Source of the DNA: an uncultured Methylophilaceae bacterium
Lineage (GTDB): Bacteria; Pseudomonadota; Gammaproteobacteria; Burkholderiales; Methylophilaceae
Direction of reading: 5' to 3'
Assembly (NCBI GenBank): GCA_905618945.1
Contig: CAJQTF010000029.1
Coordinates: 1-64,000, forward strand
Length of the DNA stretch: 64,000 nucleotides
Part shown: positions 4,465 through 24,485 of the stretch, one piece after another
How positions within the stretch are numbered: position 1 is the stretch's first letter
Layout: the number at the start of each line of letters is the position of its first letter
Made by a program: the position numbers and the translations under genes
The notes under the pieces: model-generated
What the model was told of the DNA's origin: nothing
Databases searched by the model: none
The model's input: only the letters and a program-made list of their open reading frames with translations

Positions 4465-4487
4465 ATTTTATATTTTAATTTATTTTT
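4457..4487. terminator. AT-rich perfect inverted repeat, terminator candidate
   Basis: AAAAATAAATT-n9-AATTTATTTTT overlapping the stop codon of the preceding ORF. Confidence 0.4.
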
Positions 4488-4617
4488 AGCTTTCAAGAAT
4501 TATAAGAGTGCGCTGATATCCACATTATTCAAAGTCTGGGCAATATTATAAGTAAATTGTTTTCATTGCTCTGACCTGGTTAAGTTTATGTAAAGTTTCT
4601 TATCAGCTAAATTTTTT

Positions 4618-4645
4618 ATAATAAAGTGTAGATAATAAAGTGTAG
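4618..4645. repeat. Tandem duplication of 14 bp ATAATAAAGTGTAG (2 copies)
   Basis: Two identical consecutive copies immediately upstream of ORF 4655. Confidence 0.9.
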
Positions 4646-4654
4646 AATAATGCC

Positions 4655-6857: not shown

Positions 6858-7652
6858 ATGAAAGTTGTTCTTCTTGCGGGTGGTTTAGGAACAAGAATTT
6901 CTGAAGAAACAATTCACAAACCAAAGCCAATGGTGGAAATTGGTGGACTTCCGATTCTTTGGCATGTTATGAAGATGTATTCATACTATGGAATTAATGA
7001 ATTTATTATTTGTTGTGGATACAAGGGTTATTTAATTAAAGAATATTTTTCAAATTATTACCTCCAAACTTCTGATGTCACTTTTGATTTATCATCAAAT
7101 CAAACCACGTATCATAAAAGCAAAACTGAACCATGGAAAATTACTTTAGTTAATACAGGTGACCAAACAGAGACTGGTGGAAGGATTTCAAAAATAAAAA
7201 GATACTTGGATAAAGATGAAACTTTCTGTATGACTTATGGTGATGGATTATCAAATGTTAATATCTCTGATGTAGTTGAATACCATAAAAAACATAAACT
7301 TTTGGCTACCGTAACAGCTGCACTTCCTCCTGGAAGATTTGGAGCACTATCTATAAATGATGATAACTTAGTAAATAAATTTTTGGAAAAACCTAAAGGT
7401 GATGATGCATATATTAATGGTGGTTTTTTTGTGCTTTCTGAAAAAGTAATTGATCTTATAAAAGATGACAATACATTTTGGGAAAGAGAGCCGCTAGAAA
7501 CTTTAGCAAAAAATAATCAATTAAAAGCATTTAAGCATGATGGTTTCTGGCAGCCTATGGATACCTTAAGAGAAAGAAATTACTTACAAGCATTATGGGA
7601 CTCTGGTAAAGCTCCATGGAAAGTTTGGAATGACAATGATTCAAATAGTTAA
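6858..7652 (+). CDS. rfbF: Glucose-1-phosphate cytidylyltransferase
   Basis: MKVVLLAGGLGTRISEETIHKPKPMVEIGG; full-length match to RfbF/DdhA family. Confidence 0.95.
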   Translation: MKVVLLAGGLGTRISEETIHKPKPMVEIGGLPILWHVMKMYSYYGINEFIICCGYKGYLIKEYFSNYYLQTSDVTFDLSSNQTTYHKSKTEPWKITLVNTGDQTETGGRISKIKRYLDKDETFCMTYGDGLSNVNISDVVEYHKKHKLLATVTAALPPGRFGALSINDDNLVNKFLEKPKGDDAYINGGFFVLSEKVIDLIKDDNTFWEREPLETLAKNNQLKAFKHDGFWQPMDTLRERNYLQALWDSGKAPWKVWNDNDSNS

Positions 7653-7669: not shown

Positions 7670-8725
7670 ATGAATAAAATTTTTTGGAAGGGAAAAAAGG
7701 TTCTTATAACCGGGCATACCGGGTTTAAGGGGAGCTGGCTATCAATTTGGTTGGCTGAATCAGGTGCAAGGGTAACAGGTTACTCATTAAAACCTGAAAC
7801 TAACCCAAGTTTATTTAAATCTTGTTTAATTGATAAAAAAATTAATTCAGTTATTGGCGATATAAGAGATGGGGAAAAACTAAAAAAAACAATTCTTGAC
7901 GCTCAGCCTGATATAGTTTTTCATTTAGCATCTCAGGCAATTGTTTTACAGTCATATGAAAATCCTCTTGAAACATACGAAACAAATTTAATGGGTACTG
8001 TAAATATTCTAAATGCAATAAGGGATGCACCCTCAGTAAAAGCTTTTATTAATGTTACAAGCGATAAGTGCTATGCAAATGATGAAAACTTGAGAGCTTT
8101 TAATGAAAGTGACCCTTTGGGTGGGTATGATCCATATAGCTCCAGTAAAGCCTGTTCTGAATTAATTACAGCTGCTTATAGATCTTCCTATTTTAAAGAC
8201 AGTGTTGCTATTGCAACAGCTAGAGCTGGAAATGTAATTGGCGGCGGCGACTGGGCTGAGAACAGAATTATTCCCGATTTTATAAAAAAAATTAATCATA
8301 AACAAAAATTGACTATAAGAAACCCAGAATCAATTAGGCCTTGGCAGTTCGTTCTTGAGCCATTAAGTGGATATCTGAGATTAGCGGAAAATTTATTTAC
8401 AGAAGGATCTAAGTATGCAGAATCATGGAATTTTGGACCAGATAACCAAGATGATAAATCTGTTCAGTGGCTTATTTCTAAGTTTGACAAAGAATATGGA
8501 GGTGGTGAAAATTTCGAAATAGAATTTAAAAATAACTTACCTTACGAGGCAGGTTGTCTTAAATTAGATTGTTCTAAATCTATTAAAAGATTAAAGTGGG
8601 AGCCAAAGCTTTCAATTGAGCAATCAATCTCAATGACAGCTTCTTGGTATAAAAATTTTTATTCAGATAATCTTGATATGTACACATTTAGTGTGGATCA
8701 AATTAAACAATTCGAATCAATATAG
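7670..8725 (+). CDS. rfbG: CDP-glucose 4,6-dehydratase
   Basis: GHTGFKGSWLSIWL, YSSSKACSE, RAGNVIGGGDWAENRIIPD. Confidence 0.95.
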   Translation: MNKIFWKGKKVLITGHTGFKGSWLSIWLAESGARVTGYSLKPETNPSLFKSCLIDKKINSVIGDIRDGEKLKKTILDAQPDIVFHLASQAIVLQSYENPLETYETNLMGTVNILNAIRDAPSVKAFINVTSDKCYANDENLRAFNESDPLGGYDPYSSSKACSELITAAYRSSYFKDSVAIATARAGNVIGGGDWAENRIIPDFIKKINHKQKLTIRNPESIRPWQFVLEPLSGYLRLAENLFTEGSKYAESWNFGPDNQDDKSVQWLISKFDKEYGGGENFEIEFKNNLPYEAGCLKLDCSKSIKRLKWEPKLSIEQSISMTASWYKNFYSDNLDMYTFSVDQIKQFESI

Positions 8726-8736
8726 AAAGTTAAATT

Positions 8737-9936
8737 ATGGAAAAAATCTCTTATGCTCAAACTGTCTATGGCCAAGAAGAAATAGATGCAGTTGTTAAGT
8801 GTCTTAATGAGTCGACACAAATGGGTAACTACTCAAGAAAGTTTGAGAAAGAAATTGCTGGGTTATTCAATAAAAATGAATGTTTGTATGTTAATTCTGG
8901 ATCATCAGCTTTATTTATTGGGGTAGAGGCATTTTCTTTTCCAAAAGGAGGGGAGGTTATTACTCCTGCTCTTACCTTTGGGACATCTGTTGGGTGCTTA
9001 ATTAAAAATAACCTAATCCCAGTTTTTGTTGATGTTGAGCCACTTACATACTGTATTGACGCAAATGAAATTGAAAAAGTTATTAGCAACAAGACTGTCG
9101 CAATTTTAGCTCCAAACTTGATGGGTAATCTTTGTGATTGGCCTGAAATTAAAAAGATCGCTGATAAATATAACCTTATTGTTATTGAGGATTCCGCAGA
9201 CACCTTAGGCGCCACAATTAATGGTAAAAGTTCAGGTTCATATTCAAATATGTCAATTACTAGCTTCTATGGGTCACATATAATAAATTGTGCCGGTAAT
9301 GGCGGGGCGCTATTGTTAAATGATAAAAAGATAGCTGAGAAAGCTAAATTATTGAGGTCTTGGGGGAGAAGTTCTTCATTATTTGATGAAAAAAGTGAAG
9401 CCATTGAAAATAGGTTTGACGTCAATCTAGATGGGGTCGATTATGATGCAAAGTTCGTTTTTGAAGCAGTTGGTTATAATGTTGAAGGAAGTGAAATTGG
9501 GGCAGCTTTTGGACTTGAGCAATTAAAAAAATTACAACAAAATATTGAAGTTAGAAAGGATAACTTTAAAAGGCAATGTAATTTTTTCAATCAATTTAAG
9601 CAGTATTTTAGTAACCCAATAGAAACAGATAATATAAATACAGCTTGGTTAGCATTCCCAATTCTTATTAATAAAAGTGCACCTTTTAGTAGAAAAGAAT
9701 TTCAAATATATTTAGAAAAAAGAAATATACAGACAAGGGTAGTATTTACAGGGAATATTATAAGACAACCAATGATGAAAGATATTGCACATAGGACTGT
9801 AGAAAATGGCTATCCAAATGCTGATGCTGTAATGGAGAGAGGTGTTTTACTACCACTTCATCACGGATTAACAAACAGTATGTTTGAAAGACTTCATGAG
9901 GTAATTACTGAATTCCTTGATGATTTTAAAGAATAG
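8737..9936 (+). CDS. DegT/DnrJ/EryC1-family RfbH-like dehydratase (His at the Lys position; Fe-S cysteines absent)
   Basis: SFYGSHIINCAGNGGALL; RSWGRSSSLFDEKSEAIENRF where RfbH has a Cys cluster; follows rfbFG. Confidence 0.8.
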   Translation: MEKISYAQTVYGQEEIDAVVKCLNESTQMGNYSRKFEKEIAGLFNKNECLYVNSGSSALFIGVEAFSFPKGGEVITPALTFGTSVGCLIKNNLIPVFVDVEPLTYCIDANEIEKVISNKTVAILAPNLMGNLCDWPEIKKIADKYNLIVIEDSADTLGATINGKSSGSYSNMSITSFYGSHIINCAGNGGALLLNDKKIAEKAKLLRSWGRSSSLFDEKSEAIENRFDVNLDGVDYDAKFVFEAVGYNVEGSEIGAAFGLEQLKKLQQNIEVRKDNFKRQCNFFNQFKQYFSNPIETDNINTAWLAFPILINKSAPFSRKEFQIYLEKRNIQTRVVFTGNIIRQPMMKDIAHRTVENGYPNADAVMERGVLLPLHHGLTNSMFERLHEVITEFLDDFKE

Positions 9937-9953
9937 GTTTGATAAATATTACC

Positions 9954-10763
9954 CTAAAATTTAGAAAATATAGTTATACCACCTGCCCATTGCTCAGAAA
10001 CTTGCTTAGTTGTTTTGGAAAGCATTTGCGTCATGCACCAAAATTCCAAATGTGGGCCATAGGCTTTGAGGAGTAGAACCAACCTCTCATCACGATGGAC
10101 AAATGAGGACATACATAGAATTGGCGAGTAATAATCTTTATTTATAAGCAACTCAGGCGACCCGACAACTGCAGCCCCTATGTCCATCCCTCCACTTAAA
10201 CACATCTTTACATCATTTATTTCTGGAAGTTTTGACATTTGATTTCTTTGTGAGTCTATATCAAATTCCTGAAATGCTTGTGGGAAAAACCAGCCTATAA
10301 CACCCTCACTACTATCATCTAAAAATTGATCGTAGCGTGACTCCGGATGAACTTTAATATTACCCTGTAATTCGGAATTGCTTTGTAGAACAGCCTTAAA
10401 ATGTGCCTCTGGAAATTTTTCAGTAAACGATTTCTTTAGAGCTGGAAGAATTGTTTCTTCTAGATTTTTCCCTAAATCAACTCCTTTGGAAGTATTACGG
10501 TAAATAAAAGGGATGTGAACTCCATTAGTTAGTAATGAAAATTCTTCATTGGTTTTTAATTTTTCAAGTAATAAGTTAGCCTTTGATTCAAAATCAGCAG
10601 CAGACAAATTATCTATAACCATTAAATTCTTTTTTGTTCTTTCTAGTATTAAATTAAAATCAAAATTTGGTTGGTTTATTTTGTAGTAAAAACTTGGCTC
10701 TTCACGAAAAACTCTATCGTTTACACTTGGTAAACGACGACCATGCTCATCAAACAGTTTCAA
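9954..10763 (-). CDS. Hypothetical protein, co-oriented 13 bp downstream of a radical-SAM gene
   Basis: 269 aa ORF, no recognised family. Confidence 0.65.
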   Translation of the reverse strand: MKLFDEHGRRLPSVNDRVFREEPSFYYKINQPNFDFNLILERTKKNLMVIDNLSAADFESKANLLLEKLKTNEEFSLLTNGVHIPFIYRNTSKGVDLGKNLEETILPALKKSFTEKFPEAHFKAVLQSNSELQGNIKVHPESRYDQFLDDSSEGVIGWFFPQAFQEFDIDSQRNQMSKLPEINDVKMCLSGGMDIGAAVVGSPELLINKDYYSPILCMSSFVHRDERLVLLLKAYGPHLEFWCMTQMLSKTTKQVSEQWAGGITIFSKF

Positions 10764-10776
10764 GAATATCTCCTAG

Positions 10777-11988
10777 TTAGATTGCTTTTATAGCAAAGAT
10801 AGCTCTTCTATCTTTTGCTAAAATTTCTGGCGGGCTGGGTGGCTTATCATTGTTATCAATCTCAGGAGTTTTACCAAAGCCATGTTCGTATGTCACTGGG
10901 AGTAAGTGGCTTACATTTTTTTGGTAGTCAGCAACTGATTGGTTATGGAAGCGAATAAAGCCCATATGTTCACCAATTATGCACTCATCCCTATAGGGTC
11001 CAAGCCAACTATTCATCATCCCCCTACTAAGCACATCCTTAAGAGGCTCTTTAACAATATTACCGATAGAGAGGTCCATATAAGGACATGGAACAATTTC
11101 CCCATCATGGTTAACTGTATTAATTCCTTTTACCGTAATACACCTTCCAGGTTGACCGTACGAAGGGCTCATATGGGTAAAAATATCATATTTGTCTTCT
11201 AAATATTTTAACTGGTCTACATCTTCTTTGGTACAAACCCAGGTATCTTGCTCTCTAGCTGTTCCAACAGGTTTAGCTAGCGTTACGTAAAGAGGTATAT
11301 CCTCATCTTTACAGTAACTACAGAGCATCTCAAATTCTTCAGAGAAAACACGATCCTTAATAATGCATGTTGATATAAGTAGTTCTAGGTTTGCAGATTT
11401 TGAAGCCTTTAAAGCGGTTAAAACTCTTGCATAAGAGCCTGGCTTACCCCTAAATTCATCGTGCTCTGCTTCAATCATACTGTCTAATGATATCTGAACT
11501 TTATACCCACCTAGCCCAGCAAACCATTTTGCTTTCTCTTCATCAAAAGTCCAGCCGTTAGTGTCTAAAATAATTAAATGTTTTTTTGGGTCTATAGCTG
11601 CAATAAGCTGGTCAATACTTGAGTCTAAAAGAGCTTCTCCCCCGGTTAGAACAAATCTAAATATTCCAGCTTCGTCCGCTTGTCTAGATAGCTCCCTATA
11701 ATCGTCAAGATCCATCTGGTGTCTAGGATCTAATTTAACACCAGTTGCTTTTTTAATATCACGAGTCATGTAGGGTTCTTCGCAACAGTGCATGCAATGA
11801 AAATTACATAATGAACGATTTATTTTTATTCTTAAAATCGGACTAATCTCACCATCGAGCATATTTTTAAAATATTGTTGAATTTTTTCATGAACTCTTG
11901 GGCGGTGTATGCTTTGATCTTTACGTTTATTTTTTTCAACTAAAGATAAAGCTTCTTGGTCTGCTAAAATTTGAAGTGTGTCAGTCAT
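10777..11988 (-). CDS. Radical SAM protein with SPASM-like C-terminal region
   Basis: SLCNFHCMHC (CX3CX2C), LTGGEALL, VNHDGEIVPCPYMDLSIGNI; ORF opens at 12048 but MTDTLQ at 11988 is the likelier start. Confidence 0.85.
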   Translation of the reverse strand: MTDTLQILADQEALSLVEKNKRKDQSIHRPRVHEKIQQYFKNMLDGEISPILRIKINRSLCNFHCMHCCEEPYMTRDIKKATGVKLDPRHQMDLDDYRELSRQADEAGIFRFVLTGGEALLDSSIDQLIAAIDPKKHLIILDTNGWTFDEEKAKWFAGLGGYKVQISLDSMIEAEHDEFRGKPGSYARVLTALKASKSANLELLISTCIIKDRVFSEEFEMLCSYCKDEDIPLYVTLAKPVGTAREQDTWVCTKEDVDQLKYLEDKYDIFTHMSPSYGQPGRCITVKGINTVNHDGEIVPCPYMDLSIGNIVKEPLKDVLSRGMMNSWLGPYRDECIIGEHMGFIRFHNQSVADYQKNVSHLLPVTYEHGFGKTPEIDNNDKPPSPPEILAKDRRAIFAIKAI

Positions 11989-12065
11989 AATTAGCCATGA
12001 TTTTTGAATTATAATTGTATTGTTATTGCTACAAATTCTAGCATACATATATGTTTTAATATATT

Positions 12066-12077
12066 CTTAACGTTAAG
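12066..12077. promoter_or_regulatory. 12-bp perfect palindrome CTTAACGTTAAG in a divergent intergenic region
   Basis: Located between divergent genes 11988(-) and 12136(+). Confidence 0.3.
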
Positions 12078-12135
12078 CATAAGACGTAATCAAACCCACT
12101 TTTAAAGGCATATTTAAATTAACGAAAATACACTT

Positions 12136-13245
12136 GTGAATTTACCTAACAATAAGAAAAATAAATTTATTAAAAAAAATACTATCAGTGTAATTATCCC
12201 TGTTTTTAACGATGAAAAAAGAATAGCTCGTTGCATTCAAAGTGTTAAAAATCAGAAGTATATTAATCTTGAATTAATTATAATTGATGATGGATCAGAT
12301 GATACGTCTGCTCAAATTGCTGACTTCTATGCATCGACTGATGGAAGAATTAAAGTAATTAAATCAAAAAATAGGGGGCCTGCTGCTGCGCGTAACATTG
12401 GAATTAGAAGTTCAATTGGGGAATTTATTTTTTTCTTAGATTCTGATGACTATTTAAAAAAAAATACCTTAGAGTATTTACTTGATAAAATTAAAATTCC
12501 CAATGTAGATTTATCTATTGGAGATTTTTTAATCTCTAACGACTCAATAAATGATGCAAAAATTAAATCAAAACATACATTAAAATTTTCTAGAACAGTA
12601 ACACTTAACAAATCCATAATTAATGATTATATTAGTCTTTATTTAAGAAGGCCCAATAAGTACCCATTGTTTTCATACTCATGGGGTCGTTTATTTAAGG
12701 CCTCGATAATTAAGGAACATAAATTATTTTTCAATGAGAAGTTATGGACTTTTGAGGATGTTGATTTTAATTTTAGATATTTAGCTTGGGTTAATAAGGT
12801 TTCTTTTGTGAAAAAAAATATTATGAATCACACAATTAATAATATTTATTTATCAGCCAGTATGAGGCTTCCAAAAGATCCAGGTAGGTTTTTCGGATTT
12901 AAGCAAGCTCTTAACAGTTTGGGTATTTATTTAGATAAGATGAAAATTAATCAGAATATAAAGCATAATATTTCACATGCATATGTTTGTTACACAATCA
13001 TTCAGTTGATACGCCTTGGTTTTCAGTCAAATAGAAGTAATAATAAAGTAATACTCAATTTAATTCGTGATTGTATTAGCGATAAAATGCTCCAGAATAG
13101 CCTTCATCATTACGCTCCACTGAGTGAAGATAGTAAAATAATTCCATTTCTTATAAAAATAAGACAGCCTTTACTCCTTTTTTATGCTTGTAAGATAAGG
13201 GGGAGGTTGAGGTATAAGGTAAATAACAGTCAACAAAAAACTTAA
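12136..13245 (+). CDS. Family 2 glycosyltransferase (GTG start)
   Basis: ISVIIPVFNDEKRIARCIQSVKNQ...IIIDDGSDD...GPAAARNIGI...FLDSDDYL. Confidence 0.92.
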   Translation: MNLPNNKKNKFIKKNTISVIIPVFNDEKRIARCIQSVKNQKYINLELIIIDDGSDDTSAQIADFYASTDGRIKVIKSKNRGPAAARNIGIRSSIGEFIFFLDSDDYLKKNTLEYLLDKIKIPNVDLSIGDFLISNDSINDAKIKSKHTLKFSRTVTLNKSIINDYISLYLRRPNKYPLFSYSWGRLFKASIIKEHKLFFNEKLWTFEDVDFNFRYLAWVNKVSFVKKNIMNHTINNIYLSASMRLPKDPGRFFGFKQALNSLGIYLDKMKINQNIKHNISHAYVCYTIIQLIRLGFQSNRSNNKVILNLIRDCISDKMLQNSLHHYAPLSEDSKIIPFLIKIRQPLLLFYACKIRGRLRYKVNNSQQKT

Positions 13246-13283
13246 TTTTTTGAAAAAACTTGATTTTTTGTTATAATTGTTAG

Positions 13284-14591
13284 ATGAAATTATTAGCAAA
13301 ACAGACAAAAGAAGAATTAATTGAGAAGTTAAGCATTGCAAAAGAACCGATAGTAATTTATGGGGCTGGAGTCTGTGGTCAGGTTTTGCTATTGGCATGC
13401 AAGGGTGCTGGAATTCAAGTCGAATCGTTTTGCGATAATAATATTAAGAAAAAAGGCAAGTCTTTGAATGGCCTAGAGATTATTCATACGAATGATATTG
13501 AAAATAGACATCCAGAAGCAATTTTTTTAATATCCGCAGCAGATATTAAAGATATTAAAAATCATCTAGTTGATTATGGATATTCTGAAAGTAACTTACA
13601 TCCAGGCGGCTTAATTCTTAAAGATTTTGATTATAGTGAGTTTAGGAATCACTACGAACCTTATAACAATGAAGATAAAGATAAAGGATTCGTTGAATTT
13701 GCAATTGCAAGCACAATTGAATGCCATGATGGATATTTAGACCCTAAAAAACTCTTTATGAGAAGTGTTGATATTGTTGTAACTGAAAAATGCACAATGA
13801 AATGTGTTGATTGCTCTAACTTAATGCAGTTTTTCGAAAAACCAGAAAATTATGAAATTGATGAAATGAGTAAAGCAATTGAATTACTTTGCTTATACTC
13901 TGACCAAATATTTGAATTTAGAATTATTGGCGGAGAACCATTTGTTAATAAGAATGTTCATAATGTAATTGAGAGGCTAATATCAGAACCAAAAGTAAAA
14001 AGAATTGTTATTTATACTAACGGAAATGTGATCCCAAGAGAAAATCAAATTGAATGCTTAAGGCATAAAAAAGTTCTTATGAACATTACTGACTACTCTA
14101 GATCTGGTGAAAAATCTGAAGATAAATATACAAAAAAATTATCTAGATTTGTAAGGACTACAGACAAGCTTGAGCAACTTTGTATCGACAATAAGATTGA
14201 TTACCGCCGACATCCGCCAGAAAATTGGACAGATTGTGGACGCATAGAAAATTTTAATAGGACAGTAGAAGAAAATCAAAGAGTATATGATGAGTGTGGT
14301 TGTAAAAACCTTACTACATTGTCAAAAAATGAATTACATCGCTGTCCTTTTTCAGCCCAAATAACAAGGCTAGGCGTATGTGATGAAAAAGAAGATTATG
14401 TTGATTTAACTGAGCATACAGACCCAATTGCCAATCGAAAAGCAATTAAAAGTCTTTTGGAGGATAAGGTTACTCTTAAAGCCTGTGATTTTTGCCCAGG
14501 GAGGGCGCTTCATGACCCACAAATAATTCCTGCAAAACAAATTAAAATGCCACTGCCATATAAGCGTAATATTGAAGCAACGAATTCTTAA
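13284..14591 (+). CDS. Rossmann-like domain fused to a radical SAM domain
   Basis: N-term PIVIYGAGVCGQVLL...FCDNN; then TEKCTMKCVDCSNL (CX3CX2C), IIGGEPFVNKN. Confidence 0.82.
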   Translation: MKLLAKQTKEELIEKLSIAKEPIVIYGAGVCGQVLLLACKGAGIQVESFCDNNIKKKGKSLNGLEIIHTNDIENRHPEAIFLISAADIKDIKNHLVDYGYSESNLHPGGLILKDFDYSEFRNHYEPYNNEDKDKGFVEFAIASTIECHDGYLDPKKLFMRSVDIVVTEKCTMKCVDCSNLMQFFEKPENYEIDEMSKAIELLCLYSDQIFEFRIIGGEPFVNKNVHNVIERLISEPKVKRIVIYTNGNVIPRENQIECLRHKKVLMNITDYSRSGEKSEDKYTKKLSRFVRTTDKLEQLCIDNKIDYRRHPPENWTDCGRIENFNRTVEENQRVYDECGCKNLTTLSKNELHRCPFSAQITRLGVCDEKEDYVDLTEHTDPIANRKAIKSLLEDKVTLKACDFCPGRALHDPQIIPAKQIKMPLPYKRNIEATNS

Positions 14592-14601
14592 TACTTTTCC
14601 T

Positions 14602-15804
14602 ATGAAAAGTACACCAATAAAATCTTATTTAAATTTAACTAAAATTATAAATTATTACCTTGAGTGGCTGCATGAAAATAATCTAAATAATTTCTCTGAA
14701 GAAAAAAAATTATTAAAATCTGATTTAGTCAAAGTTGTTCTAGGGCTAATTTGGATTAAAAAAGATTTAACAGATGTTAAGCATTTTCAAGCTAATAGAT
14801 ATTTTATGGATGCTATTGGTATTAATAAACTGCCAACGATTGAAATGTTTGAAATTTTTTCAGCAAAAAATGAGCTTAAAAATTTACCTATATTAAAAGA
14901 AAATATAGGTATCAATAATTATGAAAATATAAAAAACATAGCCTTAATCGTATTAGATAAATTTAACTCCAATTTAAATATAATATTAGCCCCAGAGACA
15001 CAATGGGGCCCTGAGAAAAAAAAATATTTCGAAGATCATGGATATGTGGTTATTCCTGATGTGATGACATCCTTAGAATGTTCAGGTTTTAGGGAGATTG
15101 CATTAAATATTGCTCAAGATGAAAAAGAAAAAAAAGTAGGTTTTTTTTATGGTCATGAAAATAAGTTTCAAAGAGTTTGGAATTTAGTTAACAAATCTTT
15201 AGAGCTTGGGCAATTGTTAACTTTACCCATAGTTCACCAAATAATGAATGATCTGTTTGATAGGGACACATTCCATGAAAAATACTTGCTTAGTAGTTTT
15301 CATCTTAACATATTGCCACCAGAGGGTAGGGAGCAAAAATTTCATCTAGATTCTACAGTGCCTGACCCGCTACCTTCATGGTTAATAAAGGCAAATACCA
15401 GCTTTATTATTGAAGATCATAACGAAGATAATGGAGCATTAATGTGTTTACCTGGGTCGCATAAGTTTAATAGGAAACCATCACCCTCAGATGAAAAAAA
15501 ATACAACAAAAACTTAATAAAATTGATTGCTCCCAAGGGGTCGATGATAATTTGGAGCGGCCATTTGTGGCATAAATCTGGCAATAATAAAACCACTAAA
15601 GAAAGAACTGGTCTTTTGGGCGCTTTTGTAGCAAGTCACCTTGCGGAAGTCGCAATGGAAGAGAATCATACGTTAGTAGTTGATAGTGAAAGATCAAAAT
15701 TTTTCTCTGATGATCTAAAGAGAATACTAATGTTTGATCATGGAGTTAAGCAAGGAGCGTTGGCGAAATCAAATCATTTTTGGGCAAAAAAAAAGAATAA
15801 CTAG
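14602..15804 (+). CDS. Phytanoyl-CoA dioxygenase (PhyH)-like protein
   Basis: FEDHGYVVIPDVM, FHLDSTVP (HxD), LPGSHKFNRKP, GHLWHKSGNNKTTKERTGL; ORF opens at 14572. Confidence 0.78.
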   Translation: MKSTPIKSYLNLTKIINYYLEWLHENNLNNFSEEKKLLKSDLVKVVLGLIWIKKDLTDVKHFQANRYFMDAIGINKLPTIEMFEIFSAKNELKNLPILKENIGINNYENIKNIALIVLDKFNSNLNIILAPETQWGPEKKKYFEDHGYVVIPDVMTSLECSGFREIALNIAQDEKEKKVGFFYGHENKFQRVWNLVNKSLELGQLLTLPIVHQIMNDLFDRDTFHEKYLLSSFHLNILPPEGREQKFHLDSTVPDPLPSWLIKANTSFIIEDHNEDNGALMCLPGSHKFNRKPSPSDEKKYNKNLIKLIAPKGSMIIWSGHLWHKSGNNKTTKERTGLLGAFVASHLAEVAMEENHTLVVDSERSKFFSDDLKRILMFDHGVKQGALAKSNHFWAKKKNN

Positions 15805-15869
15805 ATAGATACTTGCGATTGAGTTGCTATTAACAATTTATGTTATGGGGCAATGTGAATGACTCTAAA

Positions 15870-16922
15870 TTAATCTTCTATCAAATTTTGATATTTTTCC
15901 CTTACTCTAGCAAGAATATCTTTGGCGTCGCTATCTAGATTATCTATATCACTATCTTCGTTTAGAGAGCATGTCGCGCATGGTTGAAATGTGTGTCTTT
16001 CCCCGTTCAAATGCTTTGTCTGTAGCCGTCTAACTACTTCACCATTCCATATGTCGCTAAGTGACATTGTATTAGCATCGCCTATTACATTTTCAACCTT
16101 CCAATCAATACAGCATGGCATTATTTTTCCATCATGATTAACTTGCATACTTTTAAAAATTTGGGGGCAAACCTTTACTTCTCTTCTTGGTGCGCTTACA
16201 AACCTATGGCCTGAATCAAGCCCAAGGTTCGATGTAACTCCTGGCCATAGATTGATAAGATTTTCAATATAAATTTCGTCAGCAATATCCGAGAATAAAG
16301 CATGAAATTTTTGTATCTTAGCCTTTGAATTAACTGCTGAGTTATGAATTTTTATATGAAGTTTACATTTTTTATTTTTAACTTTTGAAAATTTTTCTAA
16401 ATTCTTGCAAAAATTGTCAAACTTTATTTTTCTATTAGTAAATTCCCAATATTGATCGTTGTTTAAACCCTCAATTGATATAATTAATCTGTCTAATGTC
16501 TTTGCCAATATAGGAATATTTTTGTCATTAAGAAGCAAGCCATTGCTAATCATTTCGAATCTTTCCGCAACTTTATTTTCAACCGCATGTTCAACAAATT
16601 CCGTAATTTTTTTATTCACTAGTGAGTCACCCAGTCCGCAAAATCTTAACAATTTTACTTTAGGAGTAAAGCTTAACAAATCAGCACACACTTTCTTAAA
16701 AAATAAAAAATCCATGGTGCCTTTCTCAAACTCATCGGGACTAATGAAATGAGGACAAAATTTACAGGCAAGATTACAGTAAGTTGTTGTTTCCATGTAG
16801 ATAACAAGTGGAGATTGCAGGGGTGCTGATGTACCTAAATTTATTCGATTTGAATTTAGCTGTGATTGGTTAATATTTTTATTATCCAATATTTTTACTT
16901 CTAAATTTAGGTCTTTTTTCAT
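15870..16922 (-). CDS. Radical SAM/SPASM protein
   Basis: TTYCNLACKFCPH (CX3CX2C); VCPQIFKSMQVNHDGKIMPCCIDW; QPCATCSL. Confidence 0.88.
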   Translation of the reverse strand: MKKDLNLEVKILDNKNINQSQLNSNRINLGTSAPLQSPLVIYMETTTYCNLACKFCPHFISPDEFEKGTMDFLFFKKVCADLLSFTPKVKLLRFCGLGDSLVNKKITEFVEHAVENKVAERFEMISNGLLLNDKNIPILAKTLDRLIISIEGLNNDQYWEFTNRKIKFDNFCKNLEKFSKVKNKKCKLHIKIHNSAVNSKAKIQKFHALFSDIADEIYIENLINLWPGVTSNLGLDSGHRFVSAPRREVKVCPQIFKSMQVNHDGKIMPCCIDWKVENVIGDANTMSLSDIWNGEVVRRLQTKHLNGERHTFQPCATCSLNEDSDIDNLDSDAKDILARVREKYQNLIED

Positions 16923-16997: not shown

Positions 16998-18032
16998 TTA
17001 TACAGTAAATTTAGTTGTTTTTAAAATTGCATCCTCAAGAGATGTCCATTCCTTAACTTTAAGTGCCTCTCTTATTTTTGTTGTATCTGGAAGATATATA
17101 TCTCTTTTAAAATTACCTTCATGAATCTCATTTTCTTGGATAATAATTTTCTTTGAGGGATCAATAAGGTCTCTTACTATATTTGCTAATTCAATAATTT
17201 GTATTCGCCTTTCAGAGCCGACATTATAAACACCTTCTTCACTCCCAACTAGAAGCTTTATAAGCCAAATTATAGTATCTGATATATAAAGGTAGGATCG
17301 ATATGGTAAACCATTACCATTAATTATAATTTTATCGTTGAAGATAGCATCATTAATAAAATTTCCAATAGCATAATGAATATTTAATGGTAAATATGGC
17401 CCAACAAATGAAAAGCACCTAGCAATCTTAAAATTAATATTATTTTTTAAGCTCAAATTCGAAATTACATCCTCCGCAAGAATTTTTCCCTTAGCTAATC
17501 CATTTCTTTTTTCTAATTCTATAGAATGACTTACATCACTTTCACTCTTCATATCCTTCGATGATGATCCATAAACAACACCCGATGAAGTAAACAAAAT
17601 TTTCGAAATATTGTTTTCTATTGCAATTTCCATAATATTTTTTGCGCCATTAAATAAAGTACTAGTTTTGTTAGCATCTGTCTCACCATTAAAAGTTTCT
17701 GTAGCTGAGGTTGCAGCCATGTGGAGTAAGAAGTCAAATTTATGGTTAATCTTTTTAAGATCTAAAATATCTATTTTAATAATATTTAAAAATTTATTAT
17801 TTTTGTAATGTGGATTCTCTAAGAAGAATTTATCTTCATTCCTTGTTATTATGGTGGTTAAGATATTTGTATTATAATTTTCATTAGCATAGAAAATTAA
17901 TTCTAGAAACCATTTCCCAAAAAAACCAGTTCCACCTGTAATTAAAATTGACTTATTTGAAAGCAAATTGATTTCATTTTTACATTTATTAAAAATAAAA
18001 TTCAAATCAGTCTCAATATTGTACTTAATCAT
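16998..18032 (-). CDS. NAD-dependent epimerase/dehydratase
   Basis: ILITGGTGFFGKWFLE, SSGVVYGSS, NVGSERRIQI; MIKYN start gives a short overlap with the upstream gene. Confidence 0.88.
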   Translation of the reverse strand: MIKYNIETDLNFIFNKCKNEINLLSNKSILITGGTGFFGKWFLELIFYANENYNTNILTTIITRNEDKFFLENPHYKNNKFLNIIKIDILDLKKINHKFDFLLHMAATSATETFNGETDANKTSTLFNGAKNIMEIAIENNISKILFTSSGVVYGSSSKDMKSESDVSHSIELEKRNGLAKGKILAEDVISNLSLKNNINFKIARCFSFVGPYLPLNIHYAIGNFINDAIFNDKIIINGNGLPYRSYLYISDTIIWLIKLLVGSEEGVYNVGSERRIQIIELANIVRDLIDPSKKIIIQENEIHEGNFKRDIYLPDTTKIREALKVKEWTSLEDAILKTTKFTV

Positions 18033-18546
18033 TATTGTGTCCATTAATAAATGATTCATAGGATGCTTGTGGTTTGATAAGGTTTACAGGAGATTTATCA
18101 TGCCAAGACCATTGACCATCTTGGGGTTCACCCCCATTATATTTTCTGCTTATATCAGGCTCACTTTCTGGCGAGCATTCATAAAGAAATGATATGAAAT
18201 GACCTCTTACATCTCTATCTTTAGCAAATAATTCTTTTATGGTTATTGGGTCTTTGGTGTGGGTAACAGAGATACCTAATTCAGATTCTGCAACTTTATG
18301 GATTCTTGAAGAAAAAGTTTCTTTAAAGCGTATAATTCCACCCGGAATATGCCAGCCGGGACCATAGTATTCATCATCTCTCCATGTTAGCAAAGTTTGT
18401 TTTTTGTTATTTTTAATTAACAGGTCCACGTTTGCCATTGCAGTTATGGAGCTAGCAAAATAAAATAATTCTTTAGATAGCCCTTCGCGTGGATCCGAAA
18501 TAATTTCTTTAATTTTTTTTATGTAGGATTCTAGTATATTAGTCAC
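18025..18546 (-). CDS. Nudix hydrolase, GDP-mannose mannosyl hydrolase-like
   Basis: GPGWHIPGGIIRFKETFSSRIHKVAESELGI Nudix-like box. Confidence 0.78.
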   Translation of the reverse strand: MTNILESYIKKIKEIISDPREGLSKELFYFASSITAMANVDLLIKNNKKQTLLTWRDDEYYGPGWHIPGGIIRFKETFSSRIHKVAESELGISVTHTKDPITIKELFAKDRDVRGHFISFLYECSPESEPDISRKYNGGEPQDGQWSWHDKSPVNLIKPQASYESFINGHNND

Positions 18547-19691
18547 TCAATAATCTCAAGGTGATTTTCACGCACAATTGCAATATTTTTAATAAAGCTA
18601 TATTCGTTGAATATTATTTTTCTCACTTCATCAGAGTAACCGGCTGCAATAATAATAACTGCATCAGGCTTATTAGTTTTTAATTGCTCTGGCGCTTCAA
18701 TTTTGATATTAGTTCCAGAGGTATATTTATTTTGTTTGAAAGCAGCAGAGTCTACAATAAAGCTTATATATTTCCCTATTCCTGATAAAGATATAATAGC
18801 CAATGACTGATGACCGGCTCCCCATATAACAATATTTTTATTATCAAAATTTCTAATATAGCTAGTTAATTGACTATTTAATGAAGTAAAGCTATCTTCA
18901 AAATTACTGACTGGAAGGCGGGTTCTTTTCTTAACTTCAACAGATAAAATATAATCATGCCAAATAGATTTGATTGATATTATTTCAAATCCATTGCTTT
19001 GTAATAGTTGTGAAAGCGAGCTCTTGTCGAAATAAAAAATATGGTCAGTAATAAATTCTGAATAAAGCCCTTTTTTTTGAATCATTTCAAAGTTAGGCAC
19101 CTCAATAATTCCATATGCTTCTTCTGCTAACAAATCCCATAAGATATTTAATGCTTCAGAGGGGTTAGGCCAATGCTCCATAAAGCTAAATATACCAAAC
19201 GCATCATAGTTATGTTGGTGATGATCTTGAATCACTAAATCATTATCTAAATAACCTTTACTTACTTCTAAATTTTTTGTTTTACAAACAACAACATTTT
19301 TATCGGAGTACTCCAAGCCAAATGCTTCTTTGATGCCAATTTTTTTTATAATTTCTAGGTAATCTCCAGCACCACAACCAATTTCAATATATTTTTTATT
19401 AGTTAAATTATTTAACTCCGACCATTCTTTAAATTGTTCTATTCTAAACTCTTCCATTTCTTTTGAAACAGATACTGCCCGAATTACTTCTTTATAATAT
19501 GAAACAGGAGGCAATATATGCTGGACTAGATTGCATTTTGTACATTGGTAAATATCAAGATTTACACTGTTTCCCTTCTGGTCAGGATCGTTATGAAAAT
19601 CTTGTGCAGAAAAAGGGGAATTCTTGTAGCTTAGAAGAGGGGGGCTGAATAATGCCCCATCACAAGCTCTACATTTAGTTTTAGACCTCAT
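18543..19691 (-). CDS. Class I SAM C-methyltransferase with N-terminal zinc-binding segment (sugar C-methyltransferase family)
   Basis: CRACDG...YQCTKCNLVQ; YIEIGCGAGDYLEII; C-terminal Rossmann-like NIVIWGAGHQSLAII. Confidence 0.85.
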   Translation of the reverse strand: MRSKTKCRACDGALFSPPLLSYKNSPFSAQDFHNDPDQKGNSVNLDIYQCTKCNLVQHILPPVSYYKEVIRAVSVSKEMEEFRIEQFKEWSELNNLTNKKYIEIGCGAGDYLEIIKKIGIKEAFGLEYSDKNVVVCKTKNLEVSKGYLDNDLVIQDHHQHNYDAFGIFSFMEHWPNPSEALNILWDLLAEEAYGIIEVPNFEMIQKKGLYSEFITDHIFYFDKSSLSQLLQSNGFEIISIKSIWHDYILSVEVKKRTRLPVSNFEDSFTSLNSQLTSYIRNFDNKNIVIWGAGHQSLAIISLSGIGKYISFIVDSAAFKQNKYTSGTNIKIEAPEQLKTNKPDAVIIIAAGYSDEVRKIIFNEYSFIKNIAIVRENHLEIIE

Positions 19692-21515
19692 TTAATTCTT
19701 AATTTTCTCAGAAGATGGATCTAGTGGATAAAGCATTTCAGTTCTTAATTGATCTCTAGATAATAGGGGAGACATGTCCTCTAAAGGCATTGACAACATT
19801 GAGCCATTCTTTTGAGGGATTGCGGCAGATTTTGGCCATAATACATCATCTGATTTTAAAGAAATATCGCACACAATTGATTTTTTACTTCTAAGAACCT
19901 TATTTACTCCATCAACCAAGGCGTTTAAATTTTTTACCTTGATAGCACTAATACCAATCGAATTAAATATTTTAGATATATCAGGTAAAAATAAATTTGA
20001 TTTTGGATCAGTCGCAATATATCTTTCATTAAAATAATTTTTTTGAGTATTTCTTATTGATGCGTAACCATTATTATTAAGGATGAATAATTTAAATGGT
20101 TTCTTAGATATCTTTAGTGTCAAAATTTCTTGAAGGTTCATTAAGAAGCTACCATCACTTTCAATGCATATCACTTCTTTATATTTGTTAGAATTTAAAG
20201 CACCAATCAATGCAGGTATCCCATATCCCATCGCACCCAATCCTGAAGTCAAAAAAATCCTTTGGCCAGGTTTATTTCTGAATGCCATATAAAAAGATTC
20301 AATAGCCAAGCCTGAGCTTCCTGTAACGATTAAAGAGTTTTTTGGTAAGAGATCTGACAAAACATCAACTAATTGAAGATGGCTAATTTTTTTATGTTTA
20401 GTAAAATTCTCCCCATCGTTAATCGCATATCTTTTTTTCCAATCATTACATTTATTTATCCAATCAGAAAAACTTTTTATTACACTTTTAGCCGCCGTTT
20501 TATTTAAATTTTCTATAAACAACTTTGCATCTAAATTAATCTTGAAATGAATTTTCATTTTAAATTTATTTAATTCATTTAAATCAATATCTATAATTAT
20601 TTTTTTAGCATTTTTAGCAAAGTTTTTTGGGTTGTATGCAGTTACAACATTATCTAGCCTTGCTCCTATTGAGATTAACAAATCAGAATTTTGAATTGCA
20701 AAATTAGGTGCCCTAAGAGCGACCGACCCAGGTTTTCCAATGTTTAATTTACTTGAATTTTCTAACAAATCCATGGCATTCCATGTTGTCACAACAGGTA
20801 TTTTTAATATTTTGCACATTTTTGTAAAATCTTTAGATGCTCTAGATAATCTAACACCATGGCCAGCTAAAATAATCGGTCTTTTTGAAGAATTAATTAA
20901 AGTGATAATTTCATCGTATTTATTAAATAACTTGACAGAATTTTTGCTATTAAATAAATTTTTAAATCCAAGAAGCTTACTTGGCTCTATGGGTGCAGCT
21001 TGAATATCAAGCGGTATATCGATCCAAACAGGGCCTTTTCGACCTGTTGTGGCTAAATGGTAAGCTTTTTCTAGTTCTGATCTAATTTTTTTTGGGTCTT
21101 TAATAGTCGTAGCGTATTTAGTAATTGATTTTACAATTGTTACAATATCGACTTCTTGAGGCCCCATCTGCCTGACACCTGTTTTTCCTTTTAAATCTGA
21201 TCTTTTAACTTGACCAGAAATAATCATTAATGGAACAGACTCTATCCAGGCACCGGCAACACCGGTTATGGCATTAGTTGAACCAGGACCAGTAGTAACT
21301 ATAGCAACCCCAATATTTTCAGTTACCCTTGAATAAGCTTCTGCAGAAATTGATGAAGCTTGTTCGTTATGGTTTGCAACATAATCTAAACCTTTTTTGC
21401 ATTGAATAGCGTCATTTAAAAACATAGCGCCGCCGCCAGGGACCATGAAAACGCAATCTACTCCAATATTTTTGATAAATGATGCTACAAAATCTGCAAC
21501 TCGAATTTTTTGCAT
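19692..21515 (-). CDS. Thiamine pyrophosphate-dependent enzyme, acetolactate synthase-like
   Basis: HNEQASSISAEAYSR, TTGPGSTNAITGVAGAWIESVP, ESDGSFLMNLQEILTL...NNNGYASIRNTQ. Confidence 0.9.
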   Translation of the reverse strand: MQKIRVADFVASFIKNIGVDCVFMVPGGGAMFLNDAIQCKKGLDYVANHNEQASSISAEAYSRVTENIGVAIVTTGPGSTNAITGVAGAWIESVPLMIISGQVKRSDLKGKTGVRQMGPQEVDIVTIVKSITKYATTIKDPKKIRSELEKAYHLATTGRKGPVWIDIPLDIQAAPIEPSKLLGFKNLFNSKNSVKLFNKYDEIITLINSSKRPIILAGHGVRLSRASKDFTKMCKILKIPVVTTWNAMDLLENSSKLNIGKPGSVALRAPNFAIQNSDLLISIGARLDNVVTAYNPKNFAKNAKKIIIDIDLNELNKFKMKIHFKINLDAKLFIENLNKTAAKSVIKSFSDWINKCNDWKKRYAINDGENFTKHKKISHLQLVDVLSDLLPKNSLIVTGSSGLAIESFYMAFRNKPGQRIFLTSGLGAMGYGIPALIGALNSNKYKEVICIESDGSFLMNLQEILTLKISKKPFKLFILNNNGYASIRNTQKNYFNERYIATDPKSNLFLPDISKIFNSIGISAIKVKNLNALVDGVNKVLRSKKSIVCDISLKSDDVLWPKSAAIPQKNGSMLSMPLEDMSPLLSRDQLRTEMLYPLDPSSEKIKN

Positions 21516-21534
21516 ATAAGTTTTTAATAAACTA

Positions 21535-23043
21535 TTATAAATTTTTATAAAAATTTATAATAGTTTTCCTATTTTTATTTTGAGTTATTTTATCATCAAT
21601 ATAAAATGAATCATTCATGTGATGCGTATCAGAAATCTCTTCAACAACAGAGCCCTTTAAACTTGTGAACTGATGAACCATTCCTTTTTCAATTGTTATG
21701 ATCTCACCTAATTTCATGATTAAATCTTTACCATCAATTGTTAATGTTAAGTCTCCGTAAATTAAGCGAAATGACTCCTCTTTTTTCTTATGAAACTGTG
21801 CAGGATGAACTTGCCCAGGAAGTGACACAAGTAATTTCTTACAATAAGTTCGATTAACTAAAGTAAAAATAACCATCCCAAATTTATAAAACTTATCAAG
21901 ACCATAATGATGTGAAATCTCCATCTCAACAGGGGATGGTAGGTGTATATTAGCCTCAGTAATTAATATATTAATTTTTTTAGTTATTCCCTCTAAAACA
22001 GACCTTCGCTCTATAATATTGGCATTATCATGAGAGATAACTTCATCCAATTCAATATTTGACTTTGCAACAAACGACGAATACTTTGAGTAATCATTTG
22101 CTGTGAATTGATTCTGAGAGGGAGGAAATGCAAAATAAATATCTTTTCGGGAAATAGCCTCACCTTTTTCAATTCTCCTATTTACAAACATACCCCTTCT
22201 TAGTGAAATTAAACTATCTTGTTCAGCTTTGTCAATTGGAGTTCTCTTGGAGCCTTGACCACAAACAATTAACGCTAATGAAAGGGCCTCTAGCCATTTT
22301 TCAAATTGAGCTGGAGTCACTGAATATTTATTAACTGGGTATAGATCAGTTGGCAAACCAATGTGTTTTTCAAAAATCTTAGCCCCTTTTGCAGCAGCCA
22401 TCAAAACGAAACTAAAATTGCTAGGATCTTCATGTGTAGAATACCCAATTGTTGTATCTGGATAGCGATTAGTAAGATAATCTATTTGGGATAAATTTAA
22501 TTTATGATTAGGTGTTGGGTACTGTGCAACACAATGCATAATTGCAAAATCTTTCCCTCTATTTTTAAAGAAAGAAATTACACTATCTATATCGCCTTCA
22601 GATGCTCCAGCTGTTGATGCAATAATTGGTTTATCTAGCTGAACCATTTCTTCTAATAATGGCCAATCAGTGAAAGAGCAACTCGCTACCTTTAATATAT
22701 CGATATCTTGTCTTGTTATTAATTTTATAGACTTGTTATCGAATGGGGTAACCATAGATAGATAGCCATTTGATTTTATTGCATCTATAAGTTTGTTAAA
22801 ATCTTTTTCAGCCAACCTGGTTTCCGAAAATCTTTTAACGTAATGATTATCAAAATCATTTTTTACTGACTTATGAATGAAGGTATCTAGGTCCCTGTAT
22901 TGCAATTTAAAAGCAAAATTAAGATTTTGAAACTTATTGCAAATTTTTGAATAAGTATCAATTAGATTGGTACCGTGTTTCACATCTCCCATATGGTTAT
23001 TTGCTATTTCAAGAACAATTAAATCTTTTAATATACTAGGCAT
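21535..23043 (-). CDS. NeuB-family sialic-acid-synthase-like protein with SAF and C-terminal cupin domain
   Basis: LEIANNHMGD, FKLQYRD, STAGASEGDID, HCVAQYPTP, GYSTHEDP, FEKHIG; SAF ISLRRGMFVNRRIEKGEAI; cupin VHPAQFHKKKEESFRLIYGDLTLTIDGK. Confidence 0.88.
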   Translation of the reverse strand: MPSILKDLIVLEIANNHMGDVKHGTNLIDTYSKICNKFQNLNFAFKLQYRDLDTFIHKSVKNDFDNHYVKRFSETRLAEKDFNKLIDAIKSNGYLSMVTPFDNKSIKLITRQDIDILKVASCSFTDWPLLEEMVQLDKPIIASTAGASEGDIDSVISFFKNRGKDFAIMHCVAQYPTPNHKLNLSQIDYLTNRYPDTTIGYSTHEDPSNFSFVLMAAAKGAKIFEKHIGLPTDLYPVNKYSVTPAQFEKWLEALSLALIVCGQGSKRTPIDKAEQDSLISLRRGMFVNRRIEKGEAISRKDIYFAFPPSQNQFTANDYSKYSSFVAKSNIELDEVISHDNANIIERRSVLEGITKKINILITEANIHLPSPVEMEISHHYGLDKFYKFGMVIFTLVNRTYCKKLLVSLPGQVHPAQFHKKKEESFRLIYGDLTLTIDGKDLIMKLGEIITIEKGMVHQFTSLKGSVVEEISDTHHMNDSFYIDDKITQNKNRKTIINFYKNL

Positions 23044-23271: not shown

Positions 23272-24207
23272 TTAGAAGTTTATCCGTTCTGATTCAATAA
23301 CTGAAAGCACATCGCGACGAACTCTGGTATGGATTGCAGCAATATATTCACCAATTAACCCCAGAAAAAACATTTGTATTGACCCAAAAAAGAATAAGCC
23401 AATTAACAATGGGGCCATGCCAACTTCGAAAGAGTCCCAATTTAAAACTTTTAAAATCAAATAGCTAGCTGCAAGAATAAAGCTTAAAATAGACAAAATA
23501 AATCCAAGTATAGATAAAAGCCTTATAGGAACTTTTGAGTGATCAGTAATCGCCGCCACAGCATGCTCATACAAGCCATATAAGCTATTACTTGTAATGC
23601 CTTGTTTTCTTGTAGATTGAGTAAAAAATACTCTACCAATCGGAAACCCTATTTGAACTAAGATGCCTCTCAAGAACGGAAGTGGGTCATGAATAGTTCT
23701 TAAAATATTAAGTACATCCCGATCAAGTAACCCATTGCCAGTTGAATTTTCAATGGGGGGGGTGTCTGAGATAATAGTTAGAGTTCGATAAAAAATTTTT
23801 CTTAAATAAAATATGAATTGGTTTTCCTTCGACGCATTTTTTACAAGTACTACAATTTTAAAACCTTCTTCCCACTTTTTTAGTAGATCAGGAATGACCT
23901 CAGGGGGGTCCTGAAGATCTGAGGCAATATGAATACATGCATCTGTTTTGACTTGTTTTAAACCATGTAGCACTGATGAAGGTGATCCGAAATTTCTAGC
24001 ATTTACTATAACTTTAACTTTTTTATTTTTTTTAGCTATTTTTTTAAGCTTGTCAACAGTTCCATCATCAGATGAATTATCAATAAATAAATGTTCGAAA
24101 TTATATTTAGGATGTTCTGCGATTACTTTGGAAACTCTACTAACTAATTCATCAACGTTAGATTCTTCATTCAAGGTAGGCGTAAGTATGGTTATTGTTT
24201 TTTTCAT
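23272..24207 (-). CDS. GT2 polyprenyl-phosphate glycosyltransferase (GtrB/ArnC-like) with C-terminal TM pair
   Basis: ITILTPTLNEESNVDELV, FIDNSSDDGTVD, two hydrophobic segments near the C terminus. Confidence 0.88.
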   Translation of the reverse strand: MKKTITILTPTLNEESNVDELVSRVSKVIAEHPKYNFEHLFIDNSSDDGTVDKLKKIAKKNKKVKVIVNARNFGSPSSVLHGLKQVKTDACIHIASDLQDPPEVIPDLLKKWEEGFKIVVLVKNASKENQFIFYLRKIFYRTLTIISDTPPIENSTGNGLLDRDVLNILRTIHDPLPFLRGILVQIGFPIGRVFFTQSTRKQGITSNSLYGLYEHAVAAITDHSKVPIRLLSILGFILSILSFILAASYLILKVLNWDSFEVGMAPLLIGLFFFGSIQMFFLGLIGEYIAAIHTRVRRDVLSVIESERINF

Positions 24208-24485
24208 TTTTAAATACCCAATTTTCATTTAAATAATATTAATTAATTGTTACACAAGGATTAAATAACATTTTACTTACTGATTAAAACTTTTTAATCT
24301 GAAATGTCGTCTACTTTAATTTTGCATTATTATCTTTGTATTATTTTTTTCATTATACATTGGGGCTTTACTAAATAATAGACACCTCCTCATAAATAAA
24401 AACAAAATAAATAGTATTTATGGAAATAAAAAAAATTGTTGTTATAATTCTAACTAAATACATTATATAAATTACAATTGGAAAT

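Follow-up and report, generated by a model that had tools for sequence, protein, structure and literature searches.

A NeuB-cupin fusion beside a YerE-like thiamine diphosphate lyase: a proposed route to higher-carbon branched sugars in Methylophilaceae and phages

Introduction

Branched-chain deoxysugars and nonulosonic acids provide the closest described counterparts of the locus considered here, a compact operon in a 64,000-nucleotide stretch of DNA from an uncultured Methylophilaceae bacterium, a marine methylotroph (assembly GCA_905618945.1, contig CAJQTF010000029.1, positions 1 to 64,000; hereafter the window), in which a NeuB-type synthase fused to a cupin domain is encoded beside an enzyme dependent on thiamine diphosphate (ThDP; TPP in domain names). 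In yersiniose synthesis, which involves YerE and YerF together with DdhA-D, YerE takes pyruvate and a C2 branch results (PMC12247030). The erwiniose enzyme ErwE of Pectobacterium atrosepticum couples 4-hydroxy-2-oxo acids, not pyruvate, to cytidine diphosphate (CDP)-4-keto-3,6-dideoxyglucose (PMC12247030). Caryophyllose, studied with MMAR_2332 of Mycobacterium marinum, bears a 1,3,4,5-tetrahydroxyhexyl branch at C4 (PMC5706390); this is the skeleton expected from a 3-deoxy-2-ulosonic acid after decarboxylation and reduction and thus offers a chemical precedent. According to a 2025 review, more than 200 YerE-like genes are on record, most of them without a known sugar structure, and viruses are named as unexplored (PMC12247030).

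The present locus resembles each of these systems in part. It shares with yersiniose synthesis an RfbF/G/H-type acceptor pathway and a ThDP lyase; to our knowledge, YerE has no NeuB partner in that pathway. A DdhD-type reductase is absent from the listed cassette genes, a genome-wide search not having been made. The likeness to erwiniose lies in the YerE-like lyase, the predicted CDP-4-keto-3,6-dideoxyglucose acceptor and a hydroxylated 2-oxo donor longer than pyruvate (PMC12247030), whereas here a NeuB-family synthase with a cupin is the likely donor maker (that of erwiniose lying outside the comparison), a C-methyltransferase, a Nudix protein like GDP-mannose mannosyl hydrolase (GDPMH) and a radical-SAM pair are added, and a larger donor is predicted. 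With the NeuB/NeuA pathways the locus has the NeuB catalytic core in common, and many NeuB-cupin genes without a ThDP neighbour adjoin NeuA; here, however, the residues for N-acyl sugars are lost and a ThDP lyase stands in place of NeuA. Judged from its sequence, the system would be a variant of YerE/ErwE-type synthesis, as in yersiniose, erwiniose and caryophyllose, the new part being the NeuB-cupin partner and carriage by phages. We propose, with a probability of about 0.68, that the operon and the nearby RfbF/G/H genes make a CDP-activated, higher-carbon branched sugar by ThDP-dependent ligation of a NeuB-derived keto acid.

A conserved five-gene operon

The operon consists of the following genes:

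21535..23043, minus strand: NeuB-SAF-cupin gene, 502 aa
19692..21515, minus strand: ThDP enzyme gene, 607 aa
18543..19691, minus strand: C-methyltransferase gene, 382 aa
18025..18546, minus strand: Nudix gene, 173 aa
16998..18059, minus strand: short-chain dehydrogenase/reductase (SDR) or "epimerase" gene, 353 aa

From NeuB to SDR, successive genes are separated by 19 bp and 0 bp and then overlap by 4 bp and 35 bp. A preliminary description of the window had claimed five tightly packed minus-strand genes, and all five open reading frames are present at these coordinates. Pfam and NCBIfam confirm the domains: NeuB with a cupin (a Lyx_isomer match), three TPP domains, Methyltransf_23/14, Nudix and extended SDR. 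The same description had proposed a survey of neighbourhood conservation. For this purpose, relatives were gathered from a collection of genome contigs, from genome searches at order, family, phylum and class level and from IMG/VR; duplicates were removed and neighbourhoods scanned. The order NeuB-TPP-methyltransferase-Nudix-SDR is kept in other Methylophilaceae loci (L001, L002/L004 and L006) at about 48-85% protein identity, and the full-length carriers found within the family belong to the same genus group as the source genome (1.0 Mb, 32 contigs, 77.6% complete).

In all, the survey yielded 41 non-redundant TPP-positive loci, in which NeuB lies at most 8 kb from a ThDP gene, among Pseudomonadota, Omnitrophota, Thermodesulfobacteriota and IMG/VR contigs. 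NeuB and the ThDP gene share a strand in all 41 and are less than 150 bp apart in 31 of them; because of this and of the order recurring in other Methylophilaceae, the five-gene grouping is not a matter of chance. This conservation fits the earlier suggestion that the five genes are probably transcribed together. A NeuA-like gene lies within 8 kb in 1 of the 41 TPP-positive loci vs 19 of 35 TPP-negative ones (Fisher p 1.6e-7, a value that ignores the relatedness of the loci). Over the NeuB tree, 2 changes suffice to account for the TPP label, whereas shuffled labels need 11 on average. The NeuBs linked to a ThDP gene fall into two clades, of which only one has the cupin. The partnership of NeuB with the ThDP enzyme is thus independent of the cupin. 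Exceptions to the linkage pattern are L098, L108 and L111, described below, and L109, which sits on a short contig.

The ThDP enzyme and its acceptor

The nearest solved relative of the ThDP enzyme is the YerE-like lyase JanthE (PDB 8rph, 3e-107, 363 bits), with the best acetohydroxyacid synthase (AHAS) 123 bits behind at 240 bits, in agreement with the earlier choice of YerE as precedent. Three TPP domains (N, M and C in Pfam) are recognized, the catalytic Glu in NEQ and the cofactor motif SDGS are present, and a C-terminal xPK...PLEDMSPL motif (general form xPK...LEDxxPL) is common to this enzyme, JanthE and most cassette proteins. In a tree that compared JanthE, plant AHAS and the genome's own AHAS, YerE and ErwE sequences not being among them, the enzyme and JanthE split from AHAS on long branches with 100% support in the Shimodaira-Hasegawa-like approximate likelihood ratio test. 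The gene is moreover linked in the window and in many cassettes to RfbF/G/H-like genes for 4-keto-3,6-dideoxysugars. Assignment as a YerE-like lyase is therefore supported at the level of sequence. A housekeeping acetolactate synthase is ruled out by the affinity to JanthE and by a separate IlvB on another contig of the genome (C16), 34% identical to the ThDP enzyme; this IlvB (L129:1465-3186) has GEAS at the position of plant AHAS GDGS.

The acceptor genes are found at lower coordinates in the window:

6858..7652, plus strand: RfbF, glucose-1-phosphate cytidylyltransferase (TIGR02623, 440 bits, over cutoff)
7670..8725, plus strand: RfbG, CDP-glucose 4,6-dehydratase (TIGR02622, 489 bits, over cutoff)
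8737..9936, plus strand: RfbH/ColD-type pyridoxal phosphate-dependent 3-dehydratase (PDB matches CDP-6-deoxy-4-hexulose-3-dehydrase, 9e-64, and ColD, 2e-43)

A CDP-deoxysugar had been suggested from rfbF and rfbG, and the scores above cutoff bear this out. The RfbH-like protein keeps the active-site Lys-to-His change, which rules out an aminotransferase, and lacks the E1 [2Fe-2S] cysteines, being ColD-like in that respect; the RfbH proteins checked in other TPP cassettes also keep the Lys-to-His change, and nearly all have the E1 Fe-S cysteines. Because RfbF and RfbG exceed their cutoffs and the dehydratase carries this change, the acceptor is most likely CDP-3,6-dideoxy-4-ketohexose, a predicted pathway that is strongly supported.

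The NeuB-cupin fusion and its operon partners

The fusion comprises a NeuB domain (about residues 8-300), SAF to about 340 and a C-terminal cupin (about 345-502), with Pfam matches to NeuB (1.5e-40) and Lyx_isomer (1.6e-7) and PDB matches to 3g8r (2e-109) and the D-lyxose isomerase 2y0o. A predicted model of the full-length protein likewise matches NeuB and D-lyxose isomerase structures. Mapped on Neisseria meningitidis NeuB, the equivalents of E25, K53, Q55, K129, S154, S213, H215 and H236, which we take to bind phosphoenolpyruvate (PEP) or metal, are all kept, whereas at the positions that presumably bind the N-acyl sugar E134 is Ser, D247 is absent and R314 is Phe. Relatives of the protein also lack E134, D247 and R314, the cupin-less clade having Asp at 134. 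A NeuB catalytic core is thus supported by the kept residues, and the earlier claim that NeuB and the ThDP enzyme are both C-C bond formers is upheld, as a prediction, by these residue checks together with the conserved neighbourhood.

The model of the cupin domain (predicted local distance difference test score 91) has 2y0o as its top Foldseek match (E 5e-11, TM 0.73), and a profile search also places it with D-lyxose isomerases. These enzymes bind their metal through three His and one Glu, with an additional Lys (PMC8378251). The cupin keeps the ligands H418, E423 and H457 and the catalytic K421, and has Gln416 at the first His position. We propose from these features that the protein is a 3-deoxy-2-ulosonic acid synthase with a fused D-lyxose/D-mannose-isomerase-like domain.

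Downstream, the C-methyltransferase contains a zinc motif (CxxC...CxxC) and an S-adenosylmethionine domain (Methyltransf_23 and Methyltransf_14 in Pfam), and its PDB matches, TcaB9 (5e-13) and D-mycarose 3-C-methyltransferase (3e-11), identify it by sequence as a sugar C-methyltransferase of the TcaB9/TylC3 type. All cassette Nudix proteins have a KVAxxELG-type box without the usual REUxEE glutamates, as in GDPMH, and a role as a nucleotide-sugar hydrolase freeing the sugar for NeuB is proposed. The last gene had been called an epimerase: membership of the extended SDR family stands (Pfam Epimerase, 1.8e-23), but the Tyr of YxxxK is replaced by Leu, so that the label is doubtful. For the same reason, a simple YerF-like reductase is not accepted.

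Proposed pathway

RfbF and RfbG would produce CDP-4-keto-6-deoxyglucose, from which the RfbH-type enzyme would strip O3 to give CDP-3,6-dideoxy-4-ketohexose. A free sugar may come from the Nudix protein, as an analog of NeuC, and/or from the fused cupin acting as a ketose-aldose isomerase; HAD-like phosphatases, whose genes accompany many of the phage copies and some of the bacterial ones, could release the sugar from its phosphate. NeuB would condense the free sugar with PEP to a 3-deoxy-2-ulosonic acid. D-mannose and D-lyxose are the best guesses for its acceptor, D-mannose being attractive since it would be the product of a GDP-mannose hydrolase as well as of a D-lyxose/D-mannose isomerase. 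An alpha-keto acid is what NeuB would make and also the type of donor that YerE/ErwE-like lyases need, so a functional link between the two enzymes is likely. Family, linkage and precedent suggest that the ThDP enzyme decarboxylates the ulosonic acid and that the resulting acyl anion attacks the CDP-sugar at its C4 ketone; the C-methyltransferase would then methylate, plausibly beside a ketone, and the product would pass to a surface glycan or a protein glycan. In this scheme the acceptor chemistry is well supported, and the donor and product are those that the enzyme families suggest. A more specific version, in which the NeuB-isomerase fusion makes a C7-C9 ulosonic acid that the lyase grafts onto the dideoxyhexose, giving C12-C14 sugars before C-methylation in a dedicated pathway shared by bacteria and tailed phages, is tentative, at somewhat below even odds.

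Several observations weigh against the proposed pathway. Two loci (L108 and L111) have NeuB-cupin with neither a ThDP gene nor NeuA nearby, and one (L098) has both a ThDP gene and a NeuA-like gene near NeuB. The best PDB match of the Nudix protein, GDPMH, is weak (E 0.0016), and the isomerase activity of the cupin is uncertain because of Gln416. Without the catalytic Tyr in the SDR, the expected YerF-like ketone reduction has no assigned enzyme. RfbF/G are missing from some cassettes, and an RmlB-like dehydratase is encoded in many of the phage cassettes, which may accordingly use another nucleotide.

Alternative explanations

The alternative that survives best, though unlikely, is that the locus serves two products: the ThDP enzyme would use pyruvate, as classic YerE does (PMC12247030), to make a yersiniose-like, C2-branched CDP-sugar, and the ulosonic acid from NeuB-cupin would be activated by a cytidine monophosphate (CMP)-transferase encoded elsewhere. 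The TPP-less NeuB-cupin relatives that adjoin NeuA, and a NeuA on another contig of this genome (C14), fit such a division. That NeuA, however, sits with its own NeuB and NeuC, NeuA-like and ThDP genes near NeuB are almost mutually exclusive (1/41), and the NeuB-ThDP pair recurs, often adjacent or overlapping, in three phyla and in phages.

Less probable again is a linear, chain-extended sugar, formed if the ThDP enzyme joins the alpha-keto acid to another acceptor, such as an aldehyde or a radical-SAM product. Three radical-SAM genes lie in the island, and several cassettes (L022, L024 and L026) are without RfbF/G/H within 10 kb; yet RfbH with dehydratase residues is found in most TPP cassettes, phage ones included, and the acceptors that YerE and ErwE are known to use physiologically are 4-keto-dideoxysugars (PMC12247030).

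An unusual sialic- or legionaminic-type pathway, with the other genes decorating that sugar, is very improbable despite the NeuB family membership and a legionaminate-type locus in the genome, given an operon without NeuA or NeuC, a NeuB that scores 147 bits for NnaB (cutoff 400) and 119 bits for PseI (cutoff 340; TIGR03569/TIGR03586) and lacks E134, D247 and R314, and the separate set on C14. That set bears on the proposal in the preliminary description to look for neuA and neuC in the rest of the genome: a second NeuB, 28% identical to that of the window, lies between a DegT aminotransferase and NeuD on one side and a NeuC on the other, in a neuB/neuC/neuA/legC-type locus. Together with the differing residues, it rules out a sialic or legionaminic pathway that uses the window NeuB, and with the neighbourhood data it confirms the early judgement that a standard sialic acid pathway was unlikely.

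Phage carriage

About 19 distinct IMG/VR contigs carry a YerE-like gene beside NeuB. At least four cassette contigs are securely viral, namely L054 (117 kb) and L096 (211 kb), both with terminase and Gp23 capsid genes, L062, with terminase and a major head protein, and L101, with terminase. In L056, genes for a DnaB helicase and a single-stranded DNA-binding protein lie upstream of the cassette. Other IMG/VR carriers are fragmentary, and cellular DNA may be among them. Plasmid and phage-isolate collections contained no full-length NeuB-cupin relative, and PHROGs no NeuB-cupin family. On eight viral contigs (L070, L077-L080, L083, L105 and L107), a second NeuB of the ordinary kind lies about 2-3 kb away from NeuB-cupin. 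In L054, genes for IscA-like and IscU/NifU_N-like Fe-S assembly proteins (L054:18077-18808) directly follow a radical-SAM gene and precede RfbH, placed as if supplying clusters to the cassette enzymes.

The wider cassette and neighbouring genes

The functional set exceeds the five genes, since RfbF, RfbG, RfbH-like, radical-SAM and hyp9954 genes accompany the operon across loci. In L021 the order is rfbF-rfbG-rfbH-neuB-TPP-methyltransferase-Nudix-radical SAM-hyp9954-233-aa protein-SDR, the counterpart of the 233-aa protein in L024 being a HAD protein; L022-L025 are variants. Further members and neighbours in the window are:

10777..12048, minus strand: radical SAM/SPASM protein (Pfam), a recurrent member present in about half of the TPP-positive loci
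9954..10763, minus strand: hyp9954, a conserved protein without Pfam or NCBIfam match, partner of 10777..12048
23272..24228, minus strand: GtrB-like polyprenyl-phosphate glycosyltransferase (Pfam/NCBIfam), a neighbour in several cassettes and a possible user of the sugar product

The radical-SAM protein and hyp9954 probably act together, as they are joined in a single 630-aa protein in L025 (15512-17404). The region 10777-16922 of the window forms one glycan island, with radical-SAM genes at 10777-12048, 13284-14591 and 15870-16922 and a PhyH-type oxygenase at 14572-15804. Upstream of rfbF, two large open reading frames (516 and 707 aa; 2914-6778) have no Pfam match. In some bacteria the cassette adjoins flagellar genes that appear flagellin-like and hook-associated-like by their start sequences (L023:14009-14725 and L120:3083-5434), suggesting flagellin glycosylation.

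Implications

In the open literature, which leaves aside paywalled papers, a dissertation dealing with longer-branched sugars and an in-silico cluster survey cited in PMC12247030, no report tying NeuB to YerE-like enzymes was found. The proposed pathway would tie two C-C-bond-forming enzyme families into a single testable route to higher-carbon branched sugars and suggests an origin for unusual keto-acid donors. It also offers a genomic marker for producers, in the form of a NeuB gene beside a YerE-like gene without NeuA. If the more specific version with C7-C9 ulosonic acids is true, C12-C14 branched sugars would constitute a class of phage-encoded glycan building blocks new to the literature covered.

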